Assembly: GCA_030710605.1 (NCBI GenBank)
Contig: CP092880.1
Span: forward strand, 16,715,826 to 16,779,825
DNA length: 64,000 nt
Direction: 5' to 3'
Origin: Cordylochernes scorpioides
Taxonomy: Eukaryota; Arthropoda; Arachnida; Pseudoscorpiones; Chernetidae
Position 1 is the first letter of the stretch; every line of letters starts with the position of its first letter. Made by a program: the position numbers and the translations under genes. Below the pieces are notes generated by a model. The model had not been told where the DNA came from and did no database searches. It worked only from the letters and a program-made list of their open reading frames with translations. Below are positions 14,650 to 57,354 of the stretch, piece after piece.

Positions 14650-15660
14650 CAGGATATGATGGAAAACGAGCCACCACAAGACGCGAAGAGGGAGGTGTAG
14701 AGCGGGCACTCCCGTGCCCGAAATAGAAGCCGACACGCACCCTGGCGGAGATTCTCCTACAGTTGACCGCCGTGCTGCCGCAAGTGGGGTCGACCCAACA
14801 CGCGGGAAGCGGACATCCCCCCCTTCGATGGAACCTACGCCGCATGCCAATTCTTCCAGGCCAACGACCGGAAGATGGACAAAGCCTTCGTGACCACTCG
14901 CCCGAAAAGTTGCTCAGGTTGCCTCGCTACCTGACGCGCCAACCCCTGGAGCTCTTCAGGAAACTCCGGTTGGCCACCCAGACCTACTTCCAGGTGAGGC
15001 AAACCCTCCTGGGACCTCTAACCTGGAGTCAAACAGGGGGTCCTTCGTCCAAGTAATATTCGCCCAGATGTTTGCTGGGCAGGCAAGCCTGGAGGAGTAC
15101 TACAGATGGAAGAACAGCGCTGGGCATGCAACTGGGCCTTCCCACAGGAGGTAATCCTCGAGACGCTGACGAGGGATTGCCGCTCTCCGACCAGCGCCTG
15201 GTCCGCGTAGTTTCCCTCCTGAGAGCATGGGAAAGTGGGTTCTTACTGGTGCAACGGATCCACAGACCCATCGCACCAACTTCGCGTCACCACGAGGAAC
15301 AACCGCCCAACATGTCGGGCCCATACACCAGCACACCAAGAGAACAGGTGCGTGGAATGCACCTGCACCCGCCGTCGAACTGCAAATTCTGCGGCGCTCA
15401 CCACTGGGCATTCTGAGTGCCGCAACAAACCACTCCATCACGCGACCGCGCGGGCAGTGCGTCCCCGCCCAACATCCACCCCAAGCCCAAAGCGGACAAG
15501 CCGCCCGAGACGCCCCAGCCTTTCGTCTACCAGGTAGGAAGGCCCCGACCTTTCGTCAGTCAGCTAACGATAAAACTGTCCATCACCCATGAACTCTCAC
15601 CCCCTTCCTAATTGACACAGGCGCAAGTCTGAACATAGTGCCCAATAACCTCTATAAAAG
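14650..15660 (+). pseudogene. Ty3/Gypsy gag-protease fragment (broken)
   Basis: This GC-rich stretch changes frame several times but keeps gag-pro order. An IPPFDGT-like motif is near 14815. A CCHC zinc knuckle at about 15375-15425 reads CKFCGAHHWAF, then SECRNK after a one-base shift. The retropepsin site LIDTGASLNIVP is at about 15606-15642. Base composition differs sharply from the flanks. The fragment stops abruptly at 15660, where the 122-bp satellite begins, and no RT follows. It is a dead, truncated element unrelated in sequence to the one at 16422. Confidence 0.65.
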
Positions 15661-16421
15661 AAGGAATAATGTAACAACCACCATATATCGACATGATGTT
15701 GAGATGTGCAGTCTTGTGTGGATGATTGTATCATCCAATACCCCATGATAGGCATAGAGTAGCTGATAAGATCAATACTGAATAAGGAATAATGTGTCAA
15801 CCACCATACATCGACATGATGTTGGGATGTGCAGTCTTGTGTGGATGATTATATCACCAATACCCCATCATACACATAGAGTAGCTGATAAGATCAACAT
15901 TGAAGAAGGAAAAATGTATCAACCACCATAAATTTACATAATGTTGGGATGTGCAGTCTTGTGTGGATGATTGTATCACCAATACCCCATGATAGACATA
16001 GAGTGCCTGATAAGACCAACACTGAAGAAGAAAAAATGTAACAACCACCATACATCGACATGATGTTGAAATGTGCAGTCTTGTGTGGATGATTGTATCA
16101 CCAATACCCCATGATAGACATAAAGTAACTGATAAGATCAACACTGAAAAAGGGAATAATGTGACACCCCTATACATTGACATGAGGTTGGAATGTTGCA
16201 GTCTTGTGTGTATGATTGATCACCAATACCCCATGATAGACATAGTGTAGCTGATAAGATCAACACTGAAAAGGAATAACATGACAACCACCATATATTG
16301 ACATGATGTTGGGATATGCAGTCTTGTGTGGATGATTGTATCACCAATACCCCATGATAGACATAGAGTAGCTGATAAGATCAACACTGAAAAAAGAATA
16401 ATGTGATAACCATCATACGAG
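15661..16421. repeat. 122-bp satellite, left block
   Basis: About 6.3 head-to-tail units of roughly 121-122 bp. Landmarks in each unit are AAGGAATAATGTG, CATACATCGACATGATGTTG, GTGCAGTCTTGTGTGGATGA, CACCAATACCCCATGATAGA and TAGCTGATAAGATCAACACT. The block ends at CATCATAC, where the Gypsy element is inserted, and resumes in phase at 20857. Open frames on the minus strand are by-products of the repeat. Confidence 0.9.
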
Positions 16422-17565
16422 GCTTTCGTTCGAACCTTATGTAATGAAAGAAGAACCTTTCGAAAACTATATTCAACGATTCAAACAGTACATTTTTGTG
16501 AATGAAATTGAAGGTAAGAAGATTGTTCCTTTTTTTATTATGTCTATTGGACCAAATACTTATGGAATTCTGAAAGAATTGATCTCACCTAGAGATGTTT
16601 GTGCATTAAAATTTGAAGAAAATTGTTAGTGTTCTACTTACTCATTTTACACCTAAGCTAAATATTATTTTTGAAAGATATGAGTTCAGCCAATTGATTC
16701 AGGAACATGGAGAAAAATAGAAGAATATGTCCTTAAATTAAAAAAACAAGCTAATAAATGTAATTTTGGCTTAAATATTGAAGAACATCTAAGGGATAAA
16801 TTCATTGCAGGCGTCTCTAATCAAGTTATTTTGAAAAGATTACTTCAAGAGCCTGAGCTCACTTTTAATATGGCAGTAAATATTGCTACCACAATAGAAT
16901 CGGTAGATTGTAATGTGTTGAAAATGAAGTCTTATGCTGAAACTAAAGAAATAAACAAATTACATTCTAAATGCAAACATTGTGGAAAGATGAATCATCA
17001 TTCGGACAGATGTTTTTTTAGAAATTCTTTCTGCTATTCTTGTAAACAATTGGGACATATATCGACTGTTTGTCATTCAAAATCTAAGAATGGATATTTT
17101 CAACCAAGAAAGAGCGAAGCATCTGCCCACGGAGAATCATTTTCGGGAAAGAATGGTGAGTCCATCAATAATATAGAATATCTGGCTAATAAATTTGAAA
17201 GTATTTTGTATGTCTTCGACATAAAATTCTTAGCAGAAATTGACACGGGTGCAGCTTTAACAACTATGTCAAAAGATCTATTTTTAAAATATTTTGAACA
17301 TGTTAAATTATTTCCGTCTAAATGTTATTTAACCGATTATCAAGGAAAGGGCATTTCCTCTATTGGAGAATGTAAAGTAAAAGTAAGATATAAAAATAAA
17401 ATAGGCCATTTAAACTTAATAGTAACAAATATTGAAAATAATAAATTTCTCATAGGAAAAGACTGGATAGTATATTTTGATATGGTACAAATTAATGTCC
17501 AACAAAATAATAATTTTGATACTAATTTTATTTTTAATAAATATTGTAAACTTTCAAAGATATAG
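16422..17565 (+). pseudogene. Gag-protease of Gypsy element 1
   Basis: Gag starts within the frame that contains the codons at 16444-16629. One frame change near 16620 leads into the frame running to 17565. Two zinc knuckles are visible: CKHCGKMNHHSDRC (about 16972-17013) and CYSCKQLGHISTVC (about 17032-17073). The retropepsin motif is FLAEIDTGAALTTMS at about 17227-17271. The N-terminus of gag is absent because the insertion begins inside it. The RT frame that follows is shifted by -1. Confidence 0.8.
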
Positions 17566-18890
17566 TCTTGCCAATAAAGGATATTTCCGTACACATTAAT
17601 GTAAAAAATAATTTTGCACCAAAATTTTATAGATTTAGACCTGCTCCCTTTGCTATTAGAAATTTAATTGAGGAAGAACTATTATTTTTATTGAATAATG
17701 ATATTATTGAAAATATAGTGGATAGCCCAATAGCTTCACCGCTAGTATGCGTCCCTAAGAAAAACGGCAAAATTAGAATTTGCGCGGACTTTAAAAGAAC
17801 CTTAAATCCATTTATCGAGGATGTAAAGTATCCGATACCGAACATCGATATTGTTTTACATTCATTTTTTGGTAAAAGTATATTTAGTAAAATTGATCTT
17901 TCAAGCGCATACCATCAGATACTTCTAGACGAGGAATCTCAAAAATTGACAGTTATTTCTACCCATAAAGGCCTTTTTAAATATAAAAGGCTGCCCTTCG
18001 GTATCAAGTCCGGAGCAACTATTTTCCAAAGAACTATGGACAATATTTTTTCCGGTCTTAAAAATGTAATAATATATTTAGACGATATTCTTGTAGCATC
18101 GTCTGATGTAAATGAGCATATTTCAGATATTGAAACAGTCATGAATAAATTATCGGATTTTAATTTTTCAATTAATAAAGAAAAATCTTTGTTTTTTTGT
18201 TGATGAAATCGATTATTTAGGACATAAAATAAATAAAAATGGAATCTATCCCCTTGAGGATAAACTGGACAGTATAAAAAAATGTCCTAAACCGAGTAAC
18301 ATTTCAGAATTGAAATCTTTCTTGGGCATGTTGTCATTCTACAGTAAATTCGTTAGAAATTCATCCATACATGCAAATCCTTTATTCTCTCTATTGAAAA
18401 GAAGTTATAATTGGAATTGGAAAAATGAACATGACCAGGCTTTCGAAAAATGTAAAAATTTGATTAGTACAAAAACTTGTTTGACGCATTATTCGCAAGA
18501 TTTACCTCTTTATGTTACTTGTGATGCATCAAATTATGGTATTGGAGGATATATTTCCCATATTGTAGACGGCACTGAGAAACCAATTACTTTGTTTCAA
18601 GAACACTAAATGACACAGAAAAGAAATATTCCCAAATAGAAAAAGAAGGATTAGCAATATTCTTTACCTTAAACAGGCTAAAACAATTCCTTTACGGAAG
18701 AAAATTTATTATTAATACAGATCACAAACCATTACTAGCCATTTTTGGCGATAAAAATAATTTACCAGCCTTAGTGGCAAATAGATTACATAGATGGTCA
18801 CTCTCAATATCAAATTTTAATTTTGAAATTAAGTATACTAAGGGAAGTGAAATACCTCTTGCAGATTTTCTTTCAAGATTTCCAAATCCT
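17566..18890 (+). pseudogene. Reverse transcriptase and RNase H of Gypsy element 1
   Basis: RT motifs appear in order: SPLVCVPKKNGKIRIC, FSKIDLSSAYHQI, KRLPFGIKSGATIFQ and the catalytic IIYLDDILVASS (about 18070-18105). A T-run near 18190 causes a one-base shift, after which the connection (SFLGMLSFYSKFV) and RNase H (LYVTCDASNYGIGGYI) follow. A second shift near 18600 leads to INTDHKPLLAIFG and KGSEIPLADFLSRFP. Catalytic residues D, YLDD and DAS are all present, so only frame breaks inactivate it. Confidence 0.85.
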
Positions 18891-20210
18891 GAAAAAGGGG
18901 AGAAGGAAGAGGAAATGGGAGAAATATTATTAATAGAAAATTCGATATTAGATTACGTCTTGGTATCGTACAAAACCCAAGAAGATCCAACTCAACTTAG
19001 AAAACTATATAAGTTAGTCAAGTACGATAGGTATGATGTTGACTCAGAGGTAGATATAAAACCTTATAATAGAATTAAAAACGAGATAACAATAGTAAAA
19101 ATTGCCTGTTTTTCGGAAATAGAATGATCATCCCCGATTCCTTAAGAGAATATGTTTTGAAAATCATCCATGAAAATCATATTGGAGTAAATAAAATGAA
19201 AACTCTGGCCAGAAGTTCTGTCTATTGGCCGGGAATGGATGAGCAAATTGAGAAACTGTCTAAAAGCTGTAGCAATTGTATGGAAAACACATCAAAGCTG
19301 CCAAAACAGGAATTTACCGAGTGGACTCCACCAAACAAAGTTTGGAAGAGAATTCATCTTGACTATTTCTATTTTGCGGAAAAACTTTTTTGATATTGGT
19401 GGATGCGCATTCTAATTGGATAGAATGTCAAATGGTTCCAAATACATCGGCGGGATTCTGCATAGACTTTTTGAGAGATGTTTAGCGAGATATGGTATCC
19501 CGGAGGTGGCGGTAATGGATAATGGGCCCCCGTTTAGAAGTTATGAAATAAAGACATTTTTTCGAAAGAAATGGCATACATGCGATGTTCAGCCCCGCTT
19601 ACCATCCGGAGAGCAACGGACTAGCGGAAGTGTCTGTAAGAGAGATAAAAAAAAACTATGAAAAGAATTATTTCGGAGGAAAGGGAATTGCCCCTTGAGT
19701 TTGCTTTGATTAAGGCTTTATATGCATATAGACTGAGTCCTTTGACTAGAACGGAGAAATCCCCGGCTGGAATATTTTTAAATCGCGAGATTAGAACGAA
19801 GATTTCCATGTTGAGCAAGAAATCAGTAAGAGTGGGGAGATTGAAAAATAAAAAACAGAACAATAGATACAAAGTAAATGATAGAGTAAGATACAGATGG
19901 ATGGAAAGAGGAAAACCGAAATGGATGTTTGGGATTGTAAAGAGAATAGTGGGAAGCAACAGCTGTATGATAGAAACTGATGGAATAGAAAGAAAAGTAC
20001 ACACTAACTATATGAGGAGAAGTATGGAGAGAAAGGATGTTTCGTCATCAGAAAAGGAATAAGCTACCCAAGGCCTCAGACGTCAAGTCCCCTGACTCCT
20101 GCTACAATAGTAGCAGAATCTACACCTGGACCACCGACTGAATCTACACCTTCCCGGAGATATCCACTACGAGAGAGGAGACCACCGGATAGATATGTAC
20201 CTTAATGAGT
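18891..20210 (+). pseudogene. Integrase of Gypsy element 1
   Basis: The zinc-binding part shows HENHIGVNK and CSNC (about 19160-19280). The core starts at KRIHLDYF, has VMDNGPPF (second Asp, about 19514), and after a frame change the ESNGLAE-type region holds the Glu. The C-terminal part (19658-20062) ends in a basic stretch. A further shift gives the tail with SRRYPLRERRPPDRYVP, typical of this Gypsy group. At least three frame breaks are present. Confidence 0.8.
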
Positions 20211-20221
20211 ATTGCTATCTT

Positions 20222-20234
20222 AAAAAAGGGGAGT
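20222..20234 (+). promoter_or_regulatory. Polypurine tract
   Basis: AAAAAAGGGGAGT lies directly before the LTR start TGATGTGG. This is the expected plus-strand primer site. Confidence 0.8.
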
Positions 20235-20508
20235 TGATGTGGATGAACTTAAAAAAAAAATTAAATATGAGTGATTGAATATTAATTAATTTATTTTTCT
20301 ATTGTTTTTTGACCAAGAAAAGGTAAAATTCAATCTATCAAAAGATATGTAAATTTTGTTCGTTCAATTTAATATTAATTTTAGTTTTGCTTGAGTTGCA
20401 TGTAAATATACTTAAGGAAGAAAAATAAACTTCTTTTTCTTTTATAAGTGCAGACTTCTTCTGTTTGATATAAATTTCTAGAAAATTAATTAAACATCAA
20501 AGCTAACA
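20235..20508 (+). repeat. 3' LTR of Gypsy element 1
   Basis: It starts TGATGTGGATGAAC, ends AAAGCTAACA and is 274 bp. AATAAACTTC near 20425 is a likely polyadenylation signal. It is about 98% identical to the inverted copy at 20581-20856. Confidence 0.9.
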
Positions 20509-20509
20509 A

Positions 20510-20524
20510 TGGCGACGAGGATGG
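20510..20524 (+). promoter_or_regulatory. Primer-binding site, tRNA-Ser(GCU)
   Basis: TGGCGACGAGGATGG, one base after the LTR, is complementary to the 3' end of tRNA-Ser(GCU) including CCA. A PBS directly after a 3' LTR means this LTR also stands in 5' position for something, which fits a joined or foldback cDNA. Confidence 0.85.
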
Positions 20525-20579
20525 AATGCTAATCCATTGGGCTTTGCCCGCGTGGGTTCGCATCCCATCCTCGTCGCCA
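20520..20579 (+). other. DNA copy of the 3' half of tRNA-Ser(GCU), with CCA
   Basis: From GATGGAATGCTAATCCAT (anticodon arm, anticodon GCT) through the variable arm and T arm (GTGGGTTCGCATCCCAT) to CCTCGTCGCCA, this follows animal tRNA-Ser(GCU) closely. The D arm and 5' half are missing, so it is not a tRNA gene. The terminal CCA is directly fused to an antisense LTR, as in a tRNA-primed minus-strand cDNA. Base 58 of the T loop, invariably A and usually methylated in tRNAs, reads C. Confidence 0.85.
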
Positions 20580-20580
20580 T

Positions 20581-20856
20581 TGTTAGCTTTGATGTTTAAT
20601 TAATTTTCTAGAAATTTATATCAAACAGAAGAAGTCTGCACTTATAAAAGAAAAAGAAGTTTATTTTTCTTCCTTAAGTATATTTACATGCAACTCAAGC
20701 AAAACTAAAATTAAAATTAAAATTGAACGAACAAAATTTACATATCTTTTGATAGATTGAATTTTACCTTTTCTTGGTCAAAAAACATTAGAAAAATAAA
20801 TTAATTAATATTCAATCACTCATATTTAATTATTTTTTTTAAGTTCATCCACATCA
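20581..20856 (-). repeat. Inverted LTR of Gypsy element 1
   Basis: Reverse complement of the LTR at 20235-20508, 276 bp, with about five differences. It ends at the canonical LTR terminus (CATCCACATCA) and satellite starts at the next base. Confidence 0.9.
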
Positions 20857-23592
20857 ATCGACATAATGTTGGGATGTGCAGTCTTGTGTGGATGATTGTA
20901 TCACCAATACCCCATGATAGACATAAAGTAGCTGATAAGATCAACATTGAAGAATGATAAAGCACAATTTGGATAATAGATTATAATAAAAGAAAATAAG
21001 ACAATAAAGGTCTTATTTAGGTTAATTTAGGTCTTATTTTCTTTTATTTTAACATTGAAGAAGGAATAATGTGACAACCACCATACATCAACATGATGTT
21101 GGGATGTGCAGTCTTGTGTGAATGATTATATCACCAAATCACCATCATACACATAGTGTAGCTGATAAGATCAACACTGAAGAAGGAATAATGTGATAAC
21201 CACCATACATCGATATGATGTTGGGATGTGCAGTTTTGTGTGGTGATTGTATCACATATACCCCATGATAGACATAGAGTAACTGATAAGATCAACACTA
21301 AAGAAGCAATAATGTGACAACCACCATACATCGAAATGATGTTGGGATGTGCAGTATTGTGTGAATGAATGTATGACCAATACCCCATGATAGACATATA
21401 GTAGCTGAATAGATCAACACTGAAGAAGAAATAATGTGACAACCACCATACATCGATATGATGTGCAGTTTTGTGTGGATGATTGCATCACCAATACCCC
21501 ATGATAGACATAGAGTAGCTGATAAGATTAACACTGAAAAAGGAATAATGTGATAACCACCATACATCGATATGATGTTGGGATGTGCAGTTTTGTGTGG
21601 AAGATTGTATCACCAATTCCCCATAATAGACATAGAGTATCTGATAAGATCAACACTGAAGAAGGAATAATGTGACAACCCCATACATCGACATGATGTT
21701 GGATGTGCAGTCTTGTGTGGATGATTGTATCACCAATACCCCATGATAGACATAGAGTAGCTGATAAGATCAATACTGAAGAAAGAATAATGTGATAACA
21801 CCCACTATATCGACATAATGTTGGATGTGCAGTCTTGTGTGATGATTGTATCACCAATACACCATGATAGACATAGAGTAGTTGATAAGATCAATACTGA
21901 AGAAGGAATAATAGGACAACCAACATACATCGACATGATTTTGGATGTGCAGTCTTGTGTGGATGATTGTATCACCAATACCCCATGATAGACATAGAGT
22001 AACTGATAATATCAACACTGAAGAAGAAATAATGTGACAAACACCATACATCAACATGATGTTGGGATGTGCAGACTTGTGTGGATGATATATCACCAAA
22101 TCACCATCATACACATAGAGTAGCTGATAAGATCAACACTGAAAAAGGAATAATGTGACATCCACCATACATCGACATGATGTTGGGATGTGCAGTCTTG
22201 TGTGGATGATTGTATCACCAATACCCCATCATAGACATAGAGTAGCTAATAAGATCAACACTGAAGAAGGAATAATGTGACAACCACCATACATCGACTT
22301 GATGTTGGGATGTGCAGTCTTGTGTGGATGATTGTATCACCAACACCCCATGATAGACATAAAGTAACTGATAAAACCAACACTGAAGAAGGAATAATGT
22401 GATAACCACTATATATCGACATGATGTTGGGATGTGCAGTATTGTGTGAATGAATGTATGACCAATACCCCATGATAGATATAAGTAGCTGATAAGATCA
22501 ACACTGAAAAAGAAATAATGTGACAACCACCATACATCGATATGATGTTGGGATGTGCAGTTTTGTGTGGATGATTGTATCACCTATACCCCATGATAGA
22601 CATAAAGTAACTGATAAGATCAACACTGAAGAAGGAATAATGTGATAACCACCATACATCGATATGATGTTGGGATGTGCAGTTTTGTGTGATGATTGTA
22701 TCACCTATACCCCATGATAGACATAAAGTAACTGATAAGATCAACACTGAAGAAGGAATAATGTGATAACCACCATACATCGATATGATGTTGGGATGTG
22801 CAGTTTTGTGTGGAAGATTGTATCACCAATTCCCCATGATAGACATAGAGTAACTGACAAGATCAACACTGAAGAAGCAATAATGTGACAACCACCATAC
22901 ATCGACATGATGTTGGGATGTGCAGTCTTGTGTGGATGATTGTATCACCAATACCCCATGATAGACATTGAGTAGCTAATAAGATCAACACTGAAGTAGA
23001 AATAATGTGACAACCACCATACATCGATATGATGTTGGGATGTGCAGTTTTGTGTGGATGATTGTATCACCTATACCCCATGATAGACATTTAATAGCTG
23101 ATAAGACCAACACTAAAGAAGGAATAATGTGACAACCGCCATATATCGACATGATATTGGAGTGCGGTCTTGTGCGGATAATTGTATCACCAATACCCCA
23201 TGATAGACATAGAGTAACTGATAAGATCATTACTAAAGAAGGAATAATGTGAAAACCACCATACATCGACATGGTGTTGGTATGTGCAGTCTTGTGTGTA
23301 TGATTGTATCACCAATACCCTACGATAAACATAGAGTAGCTGATAAGATCAACACTGAAGAAGGAATAATGTGAAAACCCAATACATCGACATGATGTTG
23401 AGATGTGCAGTCTTGTGTGGATGATTGTATCACCAATACCCCATGAAAGACGTAGAGTAGCTGATAAATTCAACACTGAAGAAGGAATAATGTGACAACC
23501 ACCATACATTGACATGATGTTGGGATATGCAGTCTTGTGCGAATGATTGTATCACCAATACCCCATGATAGACATAGAGTAGCTGATAAGTC
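20857..23592. repeat. 122-bp satellite, right block
   Basis: About 21-22 further units, the first continuing the one broken at 16421. Units differ by point changes and small indels. A 96-bp AT-rich insertion interrupts at 20955-21050. The array ends at GTAGCTGATAAG, followed by unrelated GC-richer DNA. Confidence 0.9.
20955..21050. mobile_element. 96-bp insertion with 12-bp direct repeats
   Basis: AACATTGAAGAA occurs on both sides (20943-20954 and 21051-21062). The insert holds an internal inverted repeat, AAAAGAAAATAAGAC with GTCTTATTTTCTTTT. It could be a tiny mobile element or a local duplication. Confidence 0.55.
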
Positions 23593-24548: not shown

Positions 24549-25356
24549 TGTAAATTATCGTAATACGCATTCCTGTAATGATGAATATCTCTCACTGTTG
24601 ATGAAGCCGTTGAAAGACTTGTTCCCGTAGGTGAATTAGAAAACTTTTCCCCGATTATGTTTTTCATATTGGAATCTTTAAGAGTCTGCTGAAGTCTTGC
24701 CATGACTTAGCTGTTGGCGACTGCAGAGAATCTATTTATTGTGTTCAGTTTCTTGCCGATTGTGGAAGTCCCCAATGGTAAGATTGTGCACCCATTAGAG
24801 AAGACGATTCGTTTTGAAAGGCCTCAGGAAGCGTTTCTGGCGTCACTTCAGATTGAGGTGATGTCTCAACCATCTCTGGCAAAGATTTCAAGTTTCACTG
24901 ACAGACACCCTGCTATATCTTCTTTCATTGCAGGCCGTTCCTGCTTCCTCTCCACAACTATTTTGTGAAATTTTTGGCGAATGCGGAGGTTTCAGAATCT
25001 GGGTTCATGAGGACATCTCGGAAGGCATGTTGGATATTGGCTAAATCGGTCCAGTCACCTAAAGGCACATTACGATTCCGCCTATAAAGGAGGGAATAAA
25101 GGGTAACTCATTGCTGGCCCGCTGGGGCAGTTTGAGCTAGTTCTTTCCTAGACTCATGATCAGTAGGTCGACCTCCCTGAATGAAGTCTTTCTGCAACCG
25201 GGAAACTCCGAAGAAATAATTCTAACCTTGGGTAGCTGAAGGTCTTGGTAGCGTCGAACTTCTGCAAAGAGCTAGAAGGACTGTTGTGGATCTTTTCCAT
25301 AACTTCCATGATGATCCTGATGTCTTCATTTAGTATTCTTTGTTTTGCTGTACAAA

Positions 25357-28300
25357 GTGTACTTGGTTTGATTGAAATTATTTGGTTTGATTTGAAGTGG
25401 ACTTGGTAGATTTGAAGGGGACATGGTCGATTTTAGAATGGACTTGGTAGATTTGAAGTGGTCTTGGTTGAATTGAGTGGACTTGGTTGAATTGAGTGGA
25501 CTTGGTTGAATTGTAGTGGACTTGGTTGAATTGAAACGGACTTGGTAGAATTGAAGTGGCCTTGGTTGAATTGTAGTGGAATTGGTTGAATTGAGTGGAC
25601 TTGGTTGAAATGAAGTGGACTTGGTTTGATTGAAGTGGACTTGGTTGATTGAAGTTGGACTTGGTAGTATTGAAGTGGACATGGTTTGATTGAAGTAGAC
25701 TTGGTAGCATTGAAGTGGACTTGGTTGAATTGAAGTGGACTTGGTTGAATTGAAGTGGACTTGGTTGAATTGAGTGGCCTTGGTAGAATTGAAGTGGACC
25801 TTGGTTGTATTGTAAGAGGACTTGGTTGAATTGAAGTGGACTTGGTTGAATTGAAGAGGACTTGGTTGAATTTGAAGTGACTTGGTTTGATTGAAGTGGA
25901 CTTGGTAGATTTGGAGTGGCCTTGTAAGTTTTGAAGTGTACTTGGTAGAATTGAAGTGGAACCTCAGTAGAATTGAAGTGGACTTGGTTGAATTGAAATG
26001 GACTTGGTTGAATTGAAATGGACTTGGTTGAATTGAAGTGGATTTGGTTGAATTGTAGTGGACTTGGTTGAATTGTAGTGGACTTGGTAGTATTGAAGTA
26101 GCCTTGGTAGAATTGAAGTGGACTTGGTTGAATTGAAATGGACTTGGTTGAATTGAAGTGGACTTGGTTGAATTGTAGTGGACTTGGTTGAATTGAGTGG
26201 ACTTGGTTGAATTGAAGTGGACTTGGCTGAATTGAAGTGGACTTGGTTTGATTGAAGAGGCCTTGGTAGATTTGGAGTGGCCTTGGAAGTTTTGAAGTGT
26301 ACTTGGTAGTATTGAAGTGGGGACTCAGTAGAATTGAAGTGGACTTGGTTGAATTGAAATGGACTTGGTTGAATTGAAGTGTACTTGGTAGTATTGAAGT
26401 GGACTCAGTAGAATTGAAGTGGACTTGGTAGTAGTGAAGTAGCCTTGGTAGAATTGAAGTGGACTTGGCTGAATTGAATTGGACTTAGTTTGATTGAAGT
26501 AGACTTGGTAGAATTGAAGTGGACTTGGTTGAATTGAAGTGGACTTGGTTGAATTGAAGTGGCCTTGGTAGAATTGAAGTGGACTTGGTTGAATTGAAGA
26601 GGACTTGGTTGAATTGAAGTGGACTTGGTTGAATTGAGTGGACTTGGTTGAATTGAAGTGGACTTGGCTGAATTGAAGTGGACTTGGTTTGATTGAAGTG
26701 GCCTTGGTAGAATTGAAGTAGACTTAGTAGATTTGAAATGGACTTGGTTGAATTGAAGTGGACTTGGTTGAATTGTAGTGGACTTGGTTGAATTGAAGTG
26801 GACTTGGTTGAATTGTAGTGGACTTGGTTGAATTGAAGTGGTCTTGGCTGAATTGAAGTGGACTTGGTAGATTTGAAGTGGACTTGGTTGAATTGAAGTG
26901 AACTTGGTTTGATTGGAGTGGACTCGGTAGATTTGGAGTGGACTTGGAAATTTTGAAATTGACTTGGTAGTATTGAAGTGGCCTTAGTAGAATTGAAGTG
27001 GTCTTGGTTGAATTGAAATGGACTTGGTTGAATAGAAGTGGACTTGGTAGAATTGAAGTGGACTTGGTTGAATTGAAATGGACTTGGTTGAATTGAAGAG
27101 GACTTGGTTGAATTGAAGTGGACTTGGTTGAATTGAAGAGGACTTGATTGAAGTGGACTTGGTTTGATTGAAGTGGACTTGGTAGATTTGGAGTGGACTT
27201 GGAAGTTTTGAAGTGTACTTGGTAGTATTGAAGTGGACTCAGTAGAATTGAAGTGGACTTGGTTGAATTGAAGTGGACTTGGTTGAATTGAAGAGGACTT
27301 GGTTGACTTGAAGTGGACTTGGTTGAATTGAAGAGGACTTGGTTGAATTGAAGTGGACTTGGTTTGATTGAAGTGGCCTTGGTAGATTTGGAGTGGCCTC
27401 GGAAGTTTTGAAGTGTACTTGGTAGTATTGAAGTGGGGGGACTCAGTAGAATTGAAGTGGACTTGGTTGAATTGAAATGGACTTGGTTGAATTGAAATGG
27501 ACTTGGTTGAATTGAAGTGGACTTGGTTGAATTGTAGTGGACTTGGATGAATTGAAGTGGACTTGGTTGAATTGTAGTGGACTTGGTTGAATTGAAGTGG
27601 ACTTGGCTGAATTGAAGTGGACTTGGTAGATTTGAAGTGGACTTGGTTGAATTGAAGTGACTTGGTTTGATTGAAGTGGACTTGGTTTGATTGAAGTGGA
27701 CTTGGTAGATTTGGAGTGGACTTGGAAGTTTTGAAGTGTACTTGGTAGTATTGAAGTGGACTCAGTAGAATTGAAGAGGACTTGTTGAATTGAAGTGGAC
27801 TTGGTTGAATTGAAGTGGACTTGGTAGAATTGAAGTGGACTTGGTTGAATTGAAGATGGACTTGGTTGAATTGAAGTGGACTTGGTTGAATTGAAGTGGA
27901 CTTGGTTGAATTGAAGTGGACTTGGTAGAATTGAAGTGGACTTGGTTGAATTGAAGTGGACTTGGTTGAAATGAAGTGGACTTGGTTTGATTGAAGTGGA
28001 CTTGGTAGATGAAGTTGACCTTGGTAGATTTGAAGGGACTTGGTAGAATTGAAGATGGACTTGGTAGTATTGAAGTGGACATGGTTGATTGAAGTAGACA
28101 TTGGTAGAATTGAAGTGGACTTGGTTGAATTGAAGTGGACTTGTTGAATTGAAAGTGGACTTGGTTGAATTGAAGTGGCCTTGGTAGAATTGAAGTGGAC
28201 TTGGTTGTATTGAAGAGGACTTGGTTGAATGAAGTGGACTTGGTTGATTGAAGAGGACTTGTTGAATTGAAGTGGACTTGGTTTGATTGAAGTGGACTTG

Positions 28301-31300
28301 GTAGATTTGGAAGTGGCCTTGTAAGTTAGAAGTGTACTTGGTAGTATTGAAGTGGACTCCGTAGAATTGAAGTGGACTTGGTTGAATTGAAAGTGGACTT
28401 GGTTGAATTGAAATGGATCTTGGTAGAATTGAAGTGGATTGGTTGAATTGTAGTGGACTTGGTTGAATTGTAGTGGACTTGGTAGTATAGAAGTAGCCTT
28501 GGTAGAATTGAAGTGGACTTGGTTTGAATTGATATGGACTTGGTTGAATTGAAGTGACTTGGTTGAATTGTAGTGGACTTGGTTGAATTGAGTGGACTTG
28601 GTTGAATTGAAGTGGACTTGGCTGAATTGAAGTGGACTTGGTTTGAGTTGAAGAGGCCTTGGTAGATTTGGAGTGGCCTTGAAGTTTTGACGTGTACTTG
28701 GTAGTATTGAAGTGGGGACTCAGTAGAATTGAAGTGGACTTGTTTGAATTGAAATGGACTTGGTTGAATTGAAGTGTACTTGGTAGTATTTGAAGTGGAC
28801 TCAGTAGAATTGAAGTGGACTTGGTAGTAGTGAGTTGCCTTGGTAGAATTGAAGTGGACTTGGCTGAAATTGAATTGGACTTAGTTTGATTGAAGTAGAC
28901 TTGGTAGAATTGGAAGTGGACTTGGTTGAATTGAGAGTGGACTTGGTTGAATTGAAGTGGCCTTGGTAGAATTTAAGTGGACTTGGTTGAATTGAAGAGG
29001 ACTTGGTTGAATTGAAGTGGACTTGGTTGAATTGAGTGGACTTGGTTGAATTGAAGTGGACTTGGCTGAATTGAAGTGGACTTGGTTTATTGAAGTGGCC
29101 TTGGTAGAATTGAAGTAGACTTGTAGATTTGAATGGACTTGGTTGAATTGAAGTGGACTTGGTTGAATTGTAGTGGACTTGGTTGAATTGAAGTGGACTT
29201 GGTTGAATTGAAGTGGACTTGGTTGAATTGAAGTGGACTTGGCTGAATTGAAGTGGACTTGGTAGATTTGAAGTGGACTTGGTTGAATTGAAGTGGACTT
29301 GGTTGAATTGTAGTGGACTGGTTGAATTGTAGTGGACTTGTTGAATTTGAAATGGACTTGTAGTATTGAAGTGCCTTAGTAGAATTGAAGTGGACTTGGT
29401 TGAATGAAGTGGACTTGGTTGAATAGAAGTGGACTTGGTAGAATGAAGTGGACTTGGTTGAATTGAATGGACTTGGTTGAATTGAAGTGGACTTGGTTGA
29501 ATTGAAGTGGACTTGTTGAATTGAAGGGACTTTGATTGAAGTTGACTTGGTTTGATTGAAGTGGACTTGGTAGATTTGGAGTGGGACTTGGAAGTTTTGA
29601 AGTGTACTTGGTAGTATTGAAGTTGGACTCTGTAGAATTGAGATGAGACTTGGTTGAATTGAAGTGGACTTGGTTGAGATTGAAGAGGACTTGGTTGACC
29701 TTGAAGTGGACTTGGTTGAATTGAAGAGGACATGGTTGAATTGAAGTGGCCTTGGTTTGATTGAAGTGAGCCTTGGTAGATTTGGAGAGTGGCCTCGAAG
29801 TTTTGAGTGTACTTGGTAGTATTGAAGTGGGGGGACTCAGTTGAAGAATTGTAAGTGGACTTGGTGAATAGAAATGGACTTGGTTGAATTGAAATGGACT
29901 TTGGTTTGAATTGAAGTGGACTTGGTTGGAATTGTAGTGGACCTTGGTTGAATTGAAGTGGACTTGGTTGAATTGTAGTGGACTTTGTTGAATTGAAGTG
30001 GACTTGGCTGAATTGAAGTGGACTTGGTAGATTTGAAGTGGAATTGGTTGAATTGAAGTGAACTTGGTTTGATTGAAATGGACTTGGTTTGATTGAAGTG
30101 GACTTGGTAGATTTGGAGTGGATTGGAAGTTTTGAGTGTACTTGGTAGTATTGAAGTGGACTCAGTAGAATTGAAGTGGACTTGGTTGAATGAAGTGGAC
30201 TTGGTTGAATTGAAGTGGACTTGGTAGAATTGAAGTAGACTTGGTTGAATTGAAATGGACTTGGTTGAATTGAAGTGGACTTGGTTGAATTGAAGTGGAC
30301 TTGGTTGAATTGAAGAGGACTTGGTTGAATTGAAGTGGACTTGGTTTGATTGAAGTGGACTTGGTAGATTTGGAGTGGACTTGGAAGTTTTGAAGTGTAC
30401 TTGGTAGTATTGAAGTGGGGGGGACTCAGTAGAATTGAAGTGGCCTTGGTTGAATTGAAATGGACTTGGTTGAATTGAAATGGACTTGGTTGAATTGAAG
30501 TGGACTTGGTTGAATTGTAGTGAACTTGGTTGAATTGTAGTGGACTTGGTAGTATTGAAGTAGCCTTGGTAGAATTGAAGTGGACTTGGTTGAATTGAAA
30601 TGGACTTGGTTGAATTGAAGTGGACTTGGTTGAATTGTAGTGGACTTGGTTGAATTTGAGTGGACTTGGTTGAATTGAAGTGAGCTTGGCTGAATTGAAG
30701 TGGACTTGGTTTGATTGAAGTGGGCTTGGTAGAATTGAAGTAGACTTGGTAGATTTGAAATGCACTTGGTTGAATTGAAGTGGACTTGGTTGAATTGTAG
30801 TGGACTTGGTTGAATTGAAGTGGACTTGGTTGAATTGTAGTGGACTTGGTTGAATTGAAGTGGACTTGGCTGAATTGAAGTGGACTTGGTAGATTTGAAG
30901 TGGACTTGGTTGAATTGAAGTGAACTTGGTTTGATTGAAGTGGCTCGGTAGATTTGGAGTGGACTTGGAAGTTTTGAAATTGACTTGGTAGTATTGAAGT
31001 GGACTTAGTAGAATTGAAATGGACTGGGTTGAATTGAAATGGACTTGGTTGAATTGAAGTGGACTTGGTAGAATTGAAGTGGACTTAGTTGAATTGAAGT
31101 GGAATTGGTAGAATTGAAATGGACTTGGTTGAATTGAAGTGGACTTGGTTGAATTGAAGTGGACTTGGTTTGATTGAAGTGGCCTTTGTAGAATTGAAAT
31201 GGACTTGGTTGAAATGAAGTGGACTTGGTTGAATTGAAGTGGCCTTGGTAGAATTGAAGTGGACTTGGTTGAATTGAAGTGGACTTGGTTGAATTGAGTG

Positions 31301-32752
31301 GACTTGGTTGAATTGAAGTGGACTTGGCTGAATTGAAGTGGACTTGGTTTGATTGAAGTGGCCTTGGTAGAATTGGAGTAGACTTGGTAGATTTGAAATG
31401 GACTTGGTTGAATTGAAGTGGACTTGGTTGAATTGTAGTGGACTTGGTTGAATTTAAATGGACTTGGTTGAATTGTAGTGGACTTGGTTGAATTGAAGTG
31501 GACTTGGCTGATTTGAAGTGGGCTTGGTAGATTTGAAGTGGACTTGGTTGAATTGAAGTGAACTTGGTTAGATTGAAGTGGACTCGTTAGATTTGGAGTG
31601 GACTTGGAAGTTCTGAAATTGACTTGGTAGTATTGAAGTGGACTGAGTAGAATTGAAGTGGACTTGGTTGAATTGAAATGGACTTGGTTGAATTGAAGTG
31701 GACTTGGTAGAATTGAAGGGGACTTGGTTGAATTGAAGTGGCCTGGTTGAATTGAAGAGGACTTGGTTGAATTGAAGTGGGCTTGGTTGAATTGAAGAGG
31801 ACTTGGTTGAATTGAAGTGGACTTGGTTTGATTGAAGTGGCCTTGGTAGATTTGGAGTGGACTTGGAAGTTTGAAGTGTACTTGGTAGTATTGAAGTGGA
31901 CTCAGTAGAATTGAAGTGACTTGGTTGAATTGTAGTGGACTTGGTTGAATTGAAGTGGACTTGGTAGAATTGAAGTCGACTTGGTAGAATTGAAGTGAAC
32001 TTGGTTGAATTGAAGTGGACTTGGCTGAATTGAAGTGGACTTGGTAGATTTGAAGTGGACTTGGTTGAATTGTAGTGGACTTGGTTGAATTGTAGTGGAC
32101 TTGATTGAATTGGAGTGGACTTGGTAGAATTGAAGTGAACTTGGTAGAATTGAAGTGGACTTGGTTGAGTTGTAGTGGACTTGGTTGAATTGAAATGGTT
32201 TTGTTGAATTTTGAAGTGGACTTGGTTTGATTGAAGTGGACTTGTTAAAATTGAAATGGACTGGTTGAATTGTAGTGGACTTGGTTGAATTGAAGTGGAC
32301 TTGGTTGAATTGTAGTGGACTTGGTTGAATTGAAGTGGACTTGGTTGAATTGAAGTGGACTTGGTTGAATTGAAATTGACTTGGTTGAATTGAAATGGAC
32401 TTGGTTGAATTGAAGTGGACTTGGTTGAATTGTAGTTGACTTGGTTGAATTGAAGTGGCCTTGGTTGAATTGTAGTGGACTTGGGATAATTGAAGTGGAC
32501 TTGGTTGAATTGAAGTGGACTTGGTTGAATTGTAGTAGACTTGGTAGCATTGAAGTGGACTTGGTTTGATTGAAGTAGACTTGGTAGAATTGAAGTGGAC
32601 TTGGTTGAATTATAGTTGACTTGGTTGAATTGAAGTGGACTTGGTTGAATTGAAGAGGACTTTGTTGAATTGAAGTGGACTTGTTTGAATTGTAGTGGAC
32701 TTGGTTGAATTGAAGTGGACTTGGTTTGATTGAAGTAGACTTGGTAGATTTG
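25357..32752. repeat. 20-bp minisatellite A, about 370 units
   Basis: The unit is TTGAATTGAAGTGGACTTGG with point variants (GAATTGTAG, GATTTGGAG, GAAGTTTTGAAG). Variant units recur in a fixed order, giving higher-order blocks of several hundred bases. Because 20 is not a multiple of 3 and the minus-strand unit has no stop, all three minus frames stay open for long stretches and give one 20-residue peptide repeat. These frames (up to 654 residues) are not called as genes. Confidence 0.95.
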
Positions 32753-34085
32753 AGTCAGGTTGTGGCAGGCTATGTTTGGTTGAGGCAGGCTATGTTTGTT
32801 TAAAGTGGGCTATGTCTGGTTGAGGCAGGCTATGTTTGGTTGAGGTAGGCTATGTTTGGTTTAGTTAGGCTTTTTGGTTGAGGTAGGCTATGCTTATTTG
32901 AGGTAGGCTATGTCTGGTTAGGTAGGCTATTTCTGTTTGGGGTAGGTTATGTTTGCTTGAGGTAGGCTATGTTTGCTTGAGGGAGGCTATGTTTGGTTGA
33001 GGTAGGATATGTCTAGTGTAGTTATGCTATGTTTTTGTTGAGGTAGGCTATGTCTCGTTGAAATAGGCTATGTTTGGTGAGGTTGGCTATGTTTGGTTGA
33101 GGTACCCTATGTCTGGTTGAGGTAGGCTATGTCGGGTTGAGGCAGGCTATGTTTAGTTTAGGCAGTCTATGTCGGGTTGAGGTAGGCTATTCTTGGTAGA
33201 AGTGGGCTATGTGTGGTTGAGGCAGGATATGTTTGTTTGAGGTAGGCTATGTCGGGTTGAGGCAGGCTATGTTTGGTTTAAGTGGGCTATGTATGGTTGA
33301 GGTAGGCTATGTCGAGTTGAGGTAGGCTATGTTTGGTTGAAGTAGGGTATGTTTGGCTGAGGTCTGCTATTTTTGGTTGTGGAAGGCTATGTTTGGTCGA
33401 AGTTGGCTATGTTAGGTTGTGGTAGAATATGTTTGGTTGAGGTAGGCTATGTTTGGTTGAAGTAGGCTATGTTTGGTTGAGGTCGCTATGTTTGGTTGAG
33501 GTAGGCTATGTTTGGTTAAAGTGTGCTATGTCTGGTTGAGGTGGGCTATGTCTGGTTTAGGTAGTCTATGTTTGGTTGAGGAGGGCTATATTTGGTTGGG
33601 GTAGGCTATGTTTGGTTGAGATAGGCAATGTCTGGTTGGGGTAGGCTATGTTTGGTTGAGGTGGGCTATATTTGGGTGGGGAAGGCTATGTTTGGCTGAG
33701 GTCTGCTATTTTTGGTTGTGGAAGGCTATGTTTGGTTGTGGAAGGCTATGTTTGGTTGAAGTTGGCTATGTTTGGTTGAGGTAGGCTATGTTTGGTTGAG
33801 GTACGCTATGTCTGGTGAGGTAGGCTATGTCGGGTTGAGGTAGGCTATGTTTGGTTGAAGTAGGCTATGTTTGGTTTAGGTGGGTTATGTCTGGTTTAGG
33901 TAGGCTCTGTTTGGTTGAGGAGGGCTAAATCTGGTTGAGGTGGGCTATGTCCTGGTTGAGGTGGACTGTGTCTGGTTGAGGTAGGCTATGTTTGGTTGAG
34001 GTGGGCTATATTGGTGGTATGGTGGGGAAGGCTATGTTTGGTTGTGGTAGGCTATGTTTAGTTGAGGTAGGCTATGTCGGGACGA
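32753..34085. repeat. 20-bp minisatellite B, about 66 units
   Basis: The unit is TTGAGGTAGGCTATGTTTGG with variants (GGTTTAG, GTCGGGTTGAG). It directly follows minisatellite A, has the same period and shares TTGGTTGA at the unit boundary. It ends at GTCGGGACGACATAGAC. Confidence 0.95.
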
Positions 34086-49668: not shown

Positions 49669-49865
49669 TGTAGCGTTATTTGTTGTATTGTTTTACATAA
49701 TTAGGTTTTGGATTTTGTTTGTGTTTGTTTTGCATGTATTGAGTTAATGATTGGTGTATATGTGTGTTCGTGTATTCTTTGATTTGAGTAGTCTGCTCGT
49801 TGGCAGCAATAAACGTTTATCGTTCGATTTATCTACGCCTGTTGCTTGCAATTCTTACCGCCACA
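49669..49865 (+). repeat. 5' LTR of Gypsy element 2
   Basis: Starts TGTAGCGTTATTTG, ends TTACCGCCACA. AATAAACG at 49808 is the likely polyadenylation signal. Confidence 0.95.
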
Positions 49866-49867
49866 AG

Positions 49868-49890
49868 TGGTGGAGATGCTGGGTACCGAT
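49868..49890 (+). promoter_or_regulatory. Probable primer-binding site
   Basis: TGGTGGAGATGCTGGGTACC begins two bases after the LTR. TGG fits a CCA-ending tRNA, but I cannot assign the tRNA with confidence. Confidence 0.5.
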
Positions 49891-50009
49891 ACCATCACGG
49901 ATACCTCTGTCAGAAGAAGCCGTCCGCCTAGAAGGCCTGGAACCACGTTTTGATTTCGACGAAAAGAATAAGCCAATCAGAAAAATGTCAATATCGGCTG
50001 GAGTTAACA

Positions 50010-51129
50010 CGGGTGTTAATACTTGCAAACATTTGACAAGAAACCCAACTGTGTTAGCGGCAATGGAACGGAGGATTGTGGCAAATGGATGAAGGATACG
50101 AACGTATTGCGAGATCGAACTGCTGGGATGCCACGATGAAATTGGCGAACGCACCATTCTTTTTGGAAGGGACCGCTGGCCAATGGTATGATAACAACGA
50201 AGAAGGGAATGGATTCGTGGGATATGTTTAAGGAGATGTTTAGCCGGACATTCGACAATAGCGGTGTCCTTCTCAGACGCGCTAAGGACAACCTTCAGAG
50301 TCGAGCTCAGAAGAGTACAGAATCCTGTGAATCCTATATCCAAGACGTTCTGAGCTTGTGTAGGCAGGTGAATCCCGATATGAGTAAAGAAGAGAAAGTG
50401 GCACATCTAATGAAAGGTGTGGTAGAAGATGTCTATCAGGTCATCTTGATAAAGGAAATTGATACTGTTGAAGCCTTGTCGATTGGTGCCGAAAGGTGGA
50501 GGCTTGCAAGCAGCGACGCATCGGGGAAACCAAGGTTTGAGCGACTCCCTAACGTCGCAAGTATAGAGCAACCAAACTCCTCGTCCCTGGAAGATCTGAT
50601 TCGACGAATCGTGAGAGAAGAAATTAAAAGTGCCCTACATTCGAGCCTATAGTGCCGGAGGTGAACTCCCTGAAGAAAATGATTCATGAAGAGGTTGAGA
50701 GAAAATCTGACCCCAATTGCGCAGCAGGGTCCATACTACCAAGAACAACGCCGCCAATTTGAAGGACCGGCGAAACCACCCCCGTATTACCAGCAGCAAA
50801 GTCCTACAAGGCTGACAACTGCCCGAAGAAAGACTGACGAATGGAGGACGGTGGATAATATTCCCGTTTGTTTCCAATGCGGACGCCCAGGTCACGTCGC
50901 CAGGTACTGCCGAGAGCGGCGAGGGATGATGGATCGACAGCCACCGGGGAGATACCACCCTTTCCAGAACGGCCCGCGAACGATCTATAATAGCAATGAA
51001 ACCCCAGGCCGCGCAAGTTACCGAAGCCCGTCGCCCTATCCAGGTCGTGGCCGATCCCCAGCTGAACGTCGCCCCTCGATATCGCCAAGCCGACGATCTG
51101 GCCGATCACCTTATCGTGAGGAAAACTAG
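50010..51129 (+). pseudogene. Gag of Gypsy element 2
   Basis: The capsid region shows FFLEGTAGQWYDNN (about 50155-50200), then after a frame change SWDMFKEMFSRTF (50209-50250), the usual W-F pattern of Gypsy capsids, and ends at a stop near 50652. The nucleocapsid frame 50686-51129 has the zinc knuckle CFQCGRPGHVARYC (about 50870-50911) and an RS-rich basic tail. Gag ends at TAG 51127-51129; the protease frame overlaps at -1. Confidence 0.85.
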
Positions 51130-51593
51130 AGCAAGCGCCCTTCGCTGGAGGTAAGGTCGCTGAGGAGATTATAAATCCTCCGCCGCTCATAGCCGCTAAA
51201 CTATCACAGAATATAGTTGACGTTACTATTGACGATAAAACTTTTCCTGCCCTTGTCGACTGCGGCGCTTCGTTTTCGGTTATTTCGGACCACTTTAGAC
51301 AACAACACAAAAAGACTATGTTCAGTGACGCTGGCATGACACTTAGAGTTGCCGACGGGAAATATATCGTTTCCAGGGGCCGATGTACGTTACGTTTAGA
51401 AATAAACGGATTAGTACAGCCGTTTGAATTCATTGTTTTACCAAGTTGTAGCCACGACATCATTCTCGGTTGGGACTTTCTGGAGGCGTCAAGGGCTATA
51501 ATCGATTGTGGTAGCGCCGAGATTCTGTTAGAAAAAGCAGAACTACCAGAGGATTCTTCGAGCATATTCCAAACTGTGGCCGCCGACGGATAG
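51130..51593 (+). CDS. Retropepsin of Gypsy element 2 (active site DCGA)
   Basis: The frame is -1 relative to gag and open from before the gag stop. The active-site loop reads ALVDCGASFSVIS at about 51249-51287, where the family has DT/SGA, so the catalytic Asp (51258-51260) is kept but the next residue is Cys. The second conserved region is HDIILGWDFL (about 51456-51485), as in Gypsy proteases. It releases gag and pol proteins in the particle. It ends at a stop at 51593. Confidence 0.75.
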
Positions 51594-51859
51594 CTTTATA
51601 ATCCCCGCTGGATCAACCAAGGCAGATAAACGTAATCAGCGAAGCTATACTCGGTGTGAGTGATGTCGTAATGGAGCCTTCGAGGATCCTCTTTCTAGAA
51701 CGTGATCTGATGGTTCTCCGCCTCGATCTTCGCTGTCCAGCATGGAAAAGGGAGATTTTGGATAACCAACATCGGCACATGTGATCGAACTGTCCCCAAA
51801 GGAATGTGTATTGGAGAGATACAGGTACTGGAAGAGGGTCAGCTGGCGGTCATCGGTGA

Positions 51860-53330
51860 GCTTCGGACACCAATCGGCAGGGGATTCTTGGACAAGAAAA
51901 CTCTCCAAACATTGACTCGATGATAAGCCCTGATCTATCCATGCTTGAAAGGACCAGGATATGTTCGATACTTGGGAGTTTCAGCGGCTTATTTGAATTT
52001 AATAAGTTTCCGTCTAATCTGACGAGCACAGCCAAGCACAAGATAAATACAGAGGACCATCCCCCGATTAAACGCCGTCCATATCGAGTGTCGCAGGTCG
52101 AACGTCAAACCATTCAGAATGAGGTCGACAAAATGTTGAAAGGAGGTATAGTTCAGCTTTCCGAAAGTCCTTGGTCCTCTCCTGTGGTATTAGTGAAAAA
52201 GAAAAATGGTAGTTGGCGTTTTCCGTGTCGATTACAGACACCTGAATAAAATCACAAAAAAGGATGTATATCCACTACCAAGGATTGACGATACACTCGA
52301 TTGCTTAAGAGGGGCGAGTTATTATTCTTCCATGGACCTCCGTTCTGGTTACTGGCAGATTGAGGTGGATGAGACAGATCGCGAAAAGACCGCCTTCATT
52401 ACACCCGACGGATTGTACGAGTTTAAAGTTATGCCTTTCGGGCTGTGTAACGCCCCAGCGACATTTGAAAGAATGATGGATACCTTGCTGAGGGGGTTGA
52501 AGTGGTCAATGTGCCTTTGCTATCTGGACGATATTATTGTGTTTTCACCCACCTTTGACGAACATTTTCGACGGCCTTGAATTAGTTCTCAGGTGTCTCT
52601 CAAAGGCTGGACTTGTGTTTAAATCCAGACAAGTGCTTGTTCGGAACAAAACGACTAAGCATTTTTGGGCATCTGGTGGATGGAGAGGGCGTGCACACCC
52701 GACCCGGGTAAAGTTGATGCTATGTCCAAATTCCCTACTCCCAAATCCCTTACTGATGTAAGAAGTTTCATTGGAATGTGCTCATATTATCGTCGTTTCA
52801 TTAAGAATTTTGCTCAAAAAGCTGAACCAACTACACAGGTTGTTGAGAAAGGACACCAGATTCGAATGGGGACCAGATCAACGGCAGGCCTATGAATCCT
52901 TGAAGTTGGCACTCGCGTCGGAACCCGTCTTGGCCCACTTTGACGAAAAGTATGCGACCGAACTGCACACCGACGCCAGTGGGTTTGGAATTGGTGCGGT
53001 TTTGGTCCAGGTCCAGGGAGGAAGTGAAAAACCGATTGGATATGCATCAAGAACGCTGTCAACAGCTGAAAAAAATTATTCAACAACGGAGCGGGAGTGT
53101 CTTGCCGCAATTTGGGCGATCGGCAAGTTCCGTCCATACCTATTTGGTCGCTCGTTTACAATTGTGACGGATCATCACTCGCTCTGTTGGCTTTCGGGAC
53201 TGAAGGACCCGTCCGGGAAGACTGGCCAGGTGGGCCTTAAGACTTCAGGAGTACAATGTGAACGTGGTATATAAAACGGCAGAAAACATCAAGATGCCGA
53301 TTGTCTCTCACGCAATCCAATCGAAGCGAA
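51860..53330 (+). pseudogene. RT-RNase H of Gypsy element 2
   Basis: RT in order: RRPYRVSQVER, SPWSSPVVLVKKKNGSWRF, a one-base shift at about 52220, VDYRHLNKITKKDVYPLP, SSMDLRSGYWQIEVD, MPFGLCNAPATFERMMD and the catalytic CYLDDIIVFS (about 52518-52548). Shifts follow near 52575, 52665 and 52830. The connection has SFIGMCSYYRRFI. RNase H shows ELHTDASGFGIGAVL (about 52960), ERECLAAIWA and IVTDHHSLCWL. All catalytic Asp residues are present; only frame breaks disable it. Confidence 0.9.
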
Positions 53331-54650: not shown

Positions 54651-54670
54651 CGAGGACGCTGTCCTTTTGG

Positions 54671-54682
54671 AGAGGAGGGCAT
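54671..54682 (+). promoter_or_regulatory. Polypurine tract of Gypsy element 2
   Basis: AGAGGAGGGCAT lies just before the 3' LTR start. Confidence 0.75.
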
Positions 54683-54877
54683 TGTAGCGTTATTTGTTGT
54701 ATTGTTTTACATAATTAGGTTTTGGATTTTGTTTGTGTTTGTTTTGCATGTATTGAGTTAATGATTGATGTATATGTGTTCGTGTATTCTTTGATTTGAG
54801 TAGTCTGCTCGTTGGCAGCAATAAACGTTTATCGTTCGATTTATCTACGCCTGTTGCTTGCAATTCTTACCGCCACA
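54683..54877 (+). repeat. 3' LTR of Gypsy element 2
   Basis: Almost identical to the 5' LTR; it differs at GATTGATG versus GATTGGTG and by one GT dinucleotide. Confidence 0.95.
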
Positions 54878-57345: not shown

Positions 57346-57354
57346 TTTTTTTTT
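57346..57354 (+). terminator. T-run after U3
   Basis: GAGCG is followed by TTTTTTTTT. This would end Pol III transcription, though animal U3 genes known to date use Pol II, so its role is uncertain. Confidence 0.35.

Follow-up and report, generated by a model that had tools for sequence, protein, structure and literature searches.

A palindrome of a Ty3/gypsy long terminal repeat and its tRNA-Ser(GCU) primer: a probable fossil of failed reverse transcription

Plus-strand strong-stop DNA normally ends at the m1A58 of the primer tRNA, runs on past A58 if the methyltransferase that makes m1A58 is mutated; the next step of synthesis can be served by no products other than those ending at positions 58, 55 or 54 (PMC13191261). 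HIV-1 reverse transcribed without m1A58 is among the described cases that come closest to the locus reported here, since synthesis likewise proceeds into the primer tRNA past A58 and yields a product unfit for the second strand transfer. That case was, however, experimental and arose from loss of the methyltransferase, and the extract of the report describes neither a fold-back nor a chromosomal copy (PMC13191261), whereas here we find a genomic insertion that has an inverted LTR and letters that differ where methylation is known.

Three further systems share single traits with the locus. An unintegrated, cloned circle of the Moloney virus carries a tRNA copy between two LTRs (Colicelli and Goff 1986, via PMC12220202), but its tRNA-Gly was a spurious primer, while the tRNA described below matches the primer-binding site (PBS) and lies between inverted LTRs in a chromosomal insertion. 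In an HIV provirus a reverse-transcribed, mature tRNA-Gly is likewise joined to the 3' LTR without direct repeats (PMC12220202); that tRNA, reported to match perfectly over 67 of 72 nt, is not the primer and is thought to have been inserted after the provirus, in contrast to the present copy of the primer itself next to an inverted LTR. Finally, templated inverted insertions in yeast arise, as extracted from PMC11724301, by foldback at a 3' end and create inverted duplications, yet they mostly measure about 5–34 bp and sit at chromosome breaks, whereas the duplication considered here spans about 290 bp and has ends set by reverse transcription. Literature searches, with subscription journals mostly outside their reach, returned no element in which its own primer tRNA lies between inverted LTRs.

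Anatomy of the palindrome and of its insertion site

The window, that is, the whole stretch of 64,000 nucleotides that was analysed, contains at 20234–20857 a palindrome that is evident both from reading the sequence of 19900–21300 and from a repeat search. It is composed, in this order, of an LTR, a PBS, tRNA-Ser(GCU) from the anticodon arm onwards, an inverted PBS and an inverted LTR, as had been stated in an earlier note made from the letters alone. The arms, 20234–20524 and 20565–20857, each comprise an LTR with TG...CA ends and the 15-base PBS TGGCGACGAGGATGG; according to their alignment they are 4 differences apart (2 substitutions and two 1-nt indels), and they are separated by 40 bases at 20525–20564. 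Sequence and arm alignment place the left LTR on the forward strand at 20234–20509, including one extra base on each side of TG...CA (20235–20508), while arm and empty-site alignments place the right, inverted LTR on the reverse strand at 20580–20857, where a single additional base likewise flanks TG...CA (20856–20581) at either end; base 20857 can be assigned either to this LTR or to the satellite that follows. The mirrored arm ends exactly at the border of polypurine tract and U3, the next base being different.

Between the LTRs, the forward-strand PBS at 20510–20524 is, by comparison with human letters, the complement of the 3' end of tRNA-Ser(GCU), and its last five bases, GATGG, coincide with tRNA positions 26–30 and constitute the homology at the junction. 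Within the window this 15-mer is found at only two places when up to 2 mismatches are allowed, with 0.06 matches expected in shuffled sequence. The same human-letter comparison identifies the forward strand of 20525–20564 as tRNA positions 31–61, i.e., the anticodon arm from 31, the variable arm and the T arm to 61, carrying A32 (20526), T at e2 (20544) and C58 (20561). The inverted PBS on the reverse strand at 20565–20579, CCATCCTCGTCGCCA, doubles as tRNA positions 62–76 with CCA. The earlier note had taken this CCA as evidence for a tRNA in its own right; since an inverted PBS always carries CCA as the reverse complement of its TGG (here 20577–20579), that argument has to be dropped, and it is the 40-nt core that provides independent evidence.

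A nuclear tRNA gene is not what the locus contains, as only positions 26/31–76 are present and a complete fold with both acceptor-stem arms is lacking. Consistently, ARAGORN reports no tRNA in the whole window, and Rfam at gathering scores yields no match in the window except the U3 small nucleolar RNA at 57175–57347 (91.6 bits versus a gathering score of 34, full model length). With E values up to 10 allowed, 20480–20620 attracts 26 Rfam matches, all below the gathering score, one of them to tRNA-Sec and 19 to microRNA hairpin models, which a palindrome fits.

The palindrome constitutes the 3' end of a 4.44-kb Ty3/gypsy insertion at 16419–20856/7, so that the earlier note, which had given the feature as 20235–20856, was right about the palindrome but set bounds that leave out most of the insertion. 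Its internal region (16419–20233, forward strand; Pfam and reading of open reading frames) is truncated, the start at 16419 looking like the first part of gag. Pfam detects RVT_1, RT_RNaseH_2 and RT_RNaseH in 3 of the 5 open-reading-frame pieces scanned, while gag, zinc knuckle, protease and integrase were read by eye, rather than by family search, in separate pieces; the integrase-like readings follow RNase H, which is the reverse transcriptase/RNase H/integrase order of Ty3/gypsy elements. Also as in such elements, a PBS follows an LTR and a polypurine tract precedes one: directly before the left arm, at 20222–20233 on the forward strand, lies the purine run AAAAAAGGGGAG, which from its position and its resemblance to such tracts we take to be the polypurine tract. 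Ty3/gypsy elements, however, have two direct LTRs around the internal region, and here the 5' LTR is missing: no second LTR in direct orientation is present in the window, where blastn with the LTR returns only itself and the inverted copy. The description of the locus as two inverted LTRs holds for the arms but overlooks that the left one, with gag-pol and a polypurine tract upstream of it, is a 3' LTR. A pattern built from the LTR end and the PBS gave 0 matches in a viral contig collection, and the reverse transcriptase piece gave 8 pattern-matching stretches with 0 relatives by tblastn.

On both sides the insertion is flanked by an array of a 122-bp satellite. The left flank (15658–16418; 6.2 copies by Tandem Repeats Finder) ends in ...CATAC at 16418, and the right flank (20857–23590; blastn and empty-site alignment) resumes with ATCGACAT at 20857, with 21.0 copies counted by Tandem Repeats Finder at 21051–23590 and a break at about 20981–21052. 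This break coincides with a short foldback, having 22-nt arms with 28 nt between them, that interrupts the first right-hand unit. At its left edge the satellite adjoins a protease-like reading, LIDTGASLNIVPNNLY, at 15585–15658, as if the array had perhaps begun inside another retroelement. When ...CATAC is joined to ATCGACAT, the 122-bp unit is restored with no gap and no duplication (assigning the A at 20857 to the LTR would leave the satellite one base short), and 16419–20856/7 therefore reads as one insertion without target duplication. The joined flanks thus lack the short duplication of the integrase type that is seen, in contrast, at an ordinary LTR element of the same window (49669–54877), which has ATAT on both sides, direct LTRs at 49669–49865 and 54683–54877 that are 98.5% alike over a 200-bp match, and an integrase piece detected by Pfam.

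Letters differing from human tRNA-Ser(GCU) at reported modification sites

The reference for the tRNA core consists of human tRNA-Ser(GCU) letters only, and the gene of the host, probably an animal to judge from its tRNA and repeats, may read otherwise; two intervening letters of the assembled reference are those that we take to stand there. It further draws on ATGGACTGCTAATCCATTGTGCTCT, a row of a tRNA-fragment table that bears no isoacceptor name and is identified as tRNA-Ser(GCU) because it overlaps the next published sequence (PMC12025293), on an antisense probe for human tRNA-Ser(GCU) spanning the anticodon stem (PMC4132733), and on the antisense primer TGGCGACGAGGATGGGATTCGAACCCACGCGT for tRNA-Ser(GCT) (PMC9072684); C32 is also found in a second human probe (PMC7969016). 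Over positions 26–76 (60 bases, 20520–20579) the locus differs from the human letters at five positions, all of which are located in the 40-base core, so that the core match is 35/40. The differences are C to A at 32, T to G at e11, C to T at e2, A to C at e21 and A to C at 58, where the e positions are assigned by the numbering system as we understand it to run. Positions e11 and e21 form one pair of the variable stem and have changed together, a compensated change such as a genuine tRNA from a different species would show. Searching the literature for this form of the variable arm turned up one unrelated paper on a plant virus, and patterns for tRNA-Ser(GCU) genes gave 0 matches in collections of viral and genome contigs.

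The other three differences, at 32, e2 and 58, fall on sites for which m3C, m3C and m1A, respectively, have been reported. To our knowledge, A58 is nearly universal in tRNAs, and the C58 to which the earlier note drew attention is indeed present; A32 and the T at e2, each in place of C, depart from the human letters in the same manner. Human tRNA-Ser-GCT carries m3C at 32 (PMC11233606, PMC7969016) and at e2, equivalent to 47d (PMC7969016), m3C at e2 is reported for all nuclear Ser clusters of zebrafish (PMC11417395), and tRNA-Ser is among the primers listed as carrying m1A58 (PMC13191261). Reverse transcription is said to halt or to misincorporate at m3C (PMC7969016). Judged by the comparison with human letters, the modified bases at 32, e2 and 58 were probably misread by reverse transcriptase. 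We grade this misreading as probable and not as firm, because C58, A32 and T(e2) could be native to the tRNA-Ser gene of the host.

The latter is the alternative that survives best: the read-through and snapback proposed below would be real, with the letters at 32, e2 and 58 being native to a host or variant tRNA-Ser(GCU) gene. The human letters are the sole comparison, and the compensated pair of the variable arm, by differing from them, implies that this tRNA has diverged. Yet three random differences would all fall on the three sites named in the literature with a chance of 1.2e-4, and the human letters have A58, so that we consider native letters unlikely, though by no means negligible. 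Change by mutation after insertion can be assessed from the 2 substitutions between the arms, which lead one to expect 0.14 substitutions in the 40-base core and a chance of about 1.2e-5, or 1.5e-4 if the upper 95% rate is used, that substitutions struck 32 as well as 58, figures which assume that the host tRNA gene equals the human letters at those sites.

Prediction of single-strand DNA structure for the minus strand of 20520–20594 yields a fold-back in which the terminal base of the copy is paired, with a 10-bp stem and further pairs above it (z −2.41; 3 of 200 shuffles were at least as stable). GATGG, the homology by which the earlier note had explained the junction, is indeed present both in the PBS and in the anticodon stem, but turns out to terminate a more extended, imperfect pairing of the T-arm copy with the anticodon-arm copy. 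That a stop at a given position should match the PBS somewhere over 5 bases has a chance of about 0.01, and a hybrid tRNA string of 78 bases shares two 5-mers with the PBS, GATGG and GGCGA; GATGG is thus not the sole possible homology. For each of the 16 letter pairs that positions 32 and 58 can take, we calculated the probability that the terminal base lies on its PBS partner. The observed pair attains 0.93, the highest of the 16 (a rank reached by chance in 1 of 16 cases), versus 0.006 for C32/A58; for ends at 27 or 28 the observed pair attains 0.81 and 0.76 versus 0.0005 and 0.0004. C58 alone, with C32 kept, gives 0.74, 0.23 and 0.20 for the three ends and hence contributes most of the gain.

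This top rank in the predictions would fit a selection of misread molecules, and it would fit equally a later correction of an imperfect hairpin. In the second case the letters at 32 and 58 would derive from quasi-palindrome correction or mismatch repair after insertion, and both changes do create new pairs of the palindrome (32 with 60, 34 with 58), which two random changes would achieve with a chance of 1 in 9. However, columns 31/61 and 36/56, which adjoin these pairs or lie among them, are still mismatched in the palindrome pairing, and the difference at e2 lies outside it. We consider such correction less likely than native letters, although still to be reckoned with.

A failed second strand transfer as the likely origin

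Read on the minus strand, 20525–20857 begins with its 5' end at the border of polypurine tract and U3 and continues through the LTR and the PBS, after which it follows the primer tRNA in antisense to beyond position 58; it has the make-up of tRNA-extended plus-strand strong-stop DNA. The end of the right arm at this border points to a strong-stop origin, the border being the start of plus-strand strong-stop DNA. With the anatomy and the flanks shown, we suggest, with a probability of roughly 0.7, that cDNA of a Ty3/gypsy element did not achieve its second strand transfer, folded back to prime its own extension and came to lie in the chromosome through end joining.

In the first three steps of this proposal, for which the inference is strong, plus-strand strong-stop DNA started from the polypurine tract would have copied the LTR and then the tRNA-Ser(GCU) primer still attached to it. 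Synthesis would have passed m1A58, pairing it with G, m3C32 with T and perhaps the m3C of e2 with A, and halted at or just before position 26, which is m2,2G in many eukaryotic tRNAs; on this reading the copy of the tRNA begins at 76 and reaches a point in the range 30 to 26. Stopping at 26 is plausible because m2,2G26 is reported in many zebrafish tRNA clusters, among which the extract does not name Ser (PMC11417395). The 3' end of the copy (...GCATTCCATC) would then have folded onto its own PBS region (GATGGGATGC) and been elongated as far as the U3 border, where the same strand has its 5' end, producing the inverted LTR. Read-through past 58 followed by snapback at GATGG had already been proposed in the earlier note, and it is the best supported course of events in view of the exact end at the U3 border, the missing 5' LTR, the seamless flanks and the predicted fold-back. 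The note's observation is confirmed and its interpretation supported in part.

Since the left LTR runs into the polypurine tract and pol, a further step, absent from the earlier note, is required that joins the snapped-back strand to the rest of the cDNA (polypurine tract, pol, gag). This may have occurred by strand-displacement synthesis to the U3 border, flap removal and ligation to the minus strand; by transfer of the snapback 3' end to the 3' part of a second genomic RNA; or by a switch of the upstream plus strand at GATGG onto the displaced strong-stop strand, which it would copy to that strand's 5' end. All three routes use the same read-through and GATGG and would fit equally, the sequence bearing no mark that distinguishes them. 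In the last step the second transfer would fail, leaving the molecule without a 5' LTR, as a strand lengthened by some 30 to 45 bases copied from the tRNA should be unable to prime at the minus-strand PBS, and the molecule would enter a break in satellite DNA by end joining.

It is then conceivable, although we advance this tentatively and with less confidence than the reading as a whole, that a single insertion preserves how one molecule of primer tRNA was modified, with m1A58, m3C e2 and m3C32 misread and m2,2G26 acting as the stop, and that misreading at 32 and 58 allowed the fold-back; methylations that act as hard stops would thus guard retroelements against a suicidal self-priming that leaves LTR palindromes. 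If tRNA-Ser of the host reads C32 and A58, the locus would offer evidence in DNA that in a living lineage a reverse transcriptase of the Ty3 type overran the stop at m1A58, and, if the proposal is true, it would reveal the fate of such molecules, namely failed second transfer, self-priming and capture by end joining. The combination of LTR, PBS, tRNA and inverted LTR with a missing 5' LTR and no target duplication moreover constitutes a searchable signature that could guide genome surveys for traces left by tRNA modification and by reverse transcription that failed. The present account concerns one locus, a second palindrome of this kind not having been found.

Other origins of the inverted arm and further features of the window

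Three alternatives place the origin of the inverted arm elsewhere. It might have formed once the element had integrated, if a chromosome broke at an LTR-PBS-tRNA piece and the broken end was repaired by fold-back, and inverted insertions at breaks are indeed known from yeast (PMC11724301). Such repair offers no reason why the inverted arm should stop exactly at the border of polypurine tract and U3, the satellite resumes in phase, and a tRNA copy would still be needed beforehand; we therefore regard it as improbable.

Long inverted repeats are a known class of artefact, and the palindrome could in principle be a fold-back chimera of assembly or amplification. A chimera would mirror the sequence past the U3 border, where the mirroring here stops, and the arms carry 4 differences while the unrelated satellite continues in phase; this candidate was accordingly rejected as very improbable.

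Least probable of all are a separate nested insertion of the right LTR, which the earlier note had named as a ground for abandoning its reading and which we reject for want of a target duplication, the right LTR being joined via tRNA positions 62–76 and its outer edge continuing the satellite unit, and priming by a tRNA half, which the note had also considered and which has precedents in Drosophila copia and in Ty5, primed from an internal cleavage in the anticodon loop (PMC5371799), but is rejected because the PBS matches the 3' CCA end, unlike the copia type, whose PBS matches an internal site in the anticodon region at which the primer ends, and because the copy spans the whole anticodon loop to position 26–30. 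The structure is real, and the fossil of a failed reverse transcription is its best explanation.

Elsewhere in the window, a 20-bp satellite of about 370 units occupies 25355–32753 and is open in several minus-strand frames, the longest having 1147 codons, and a further LTR-retroelement fragment with RNase H and integrase domains (Pfam) lies on the minus strand at 62173–63387.
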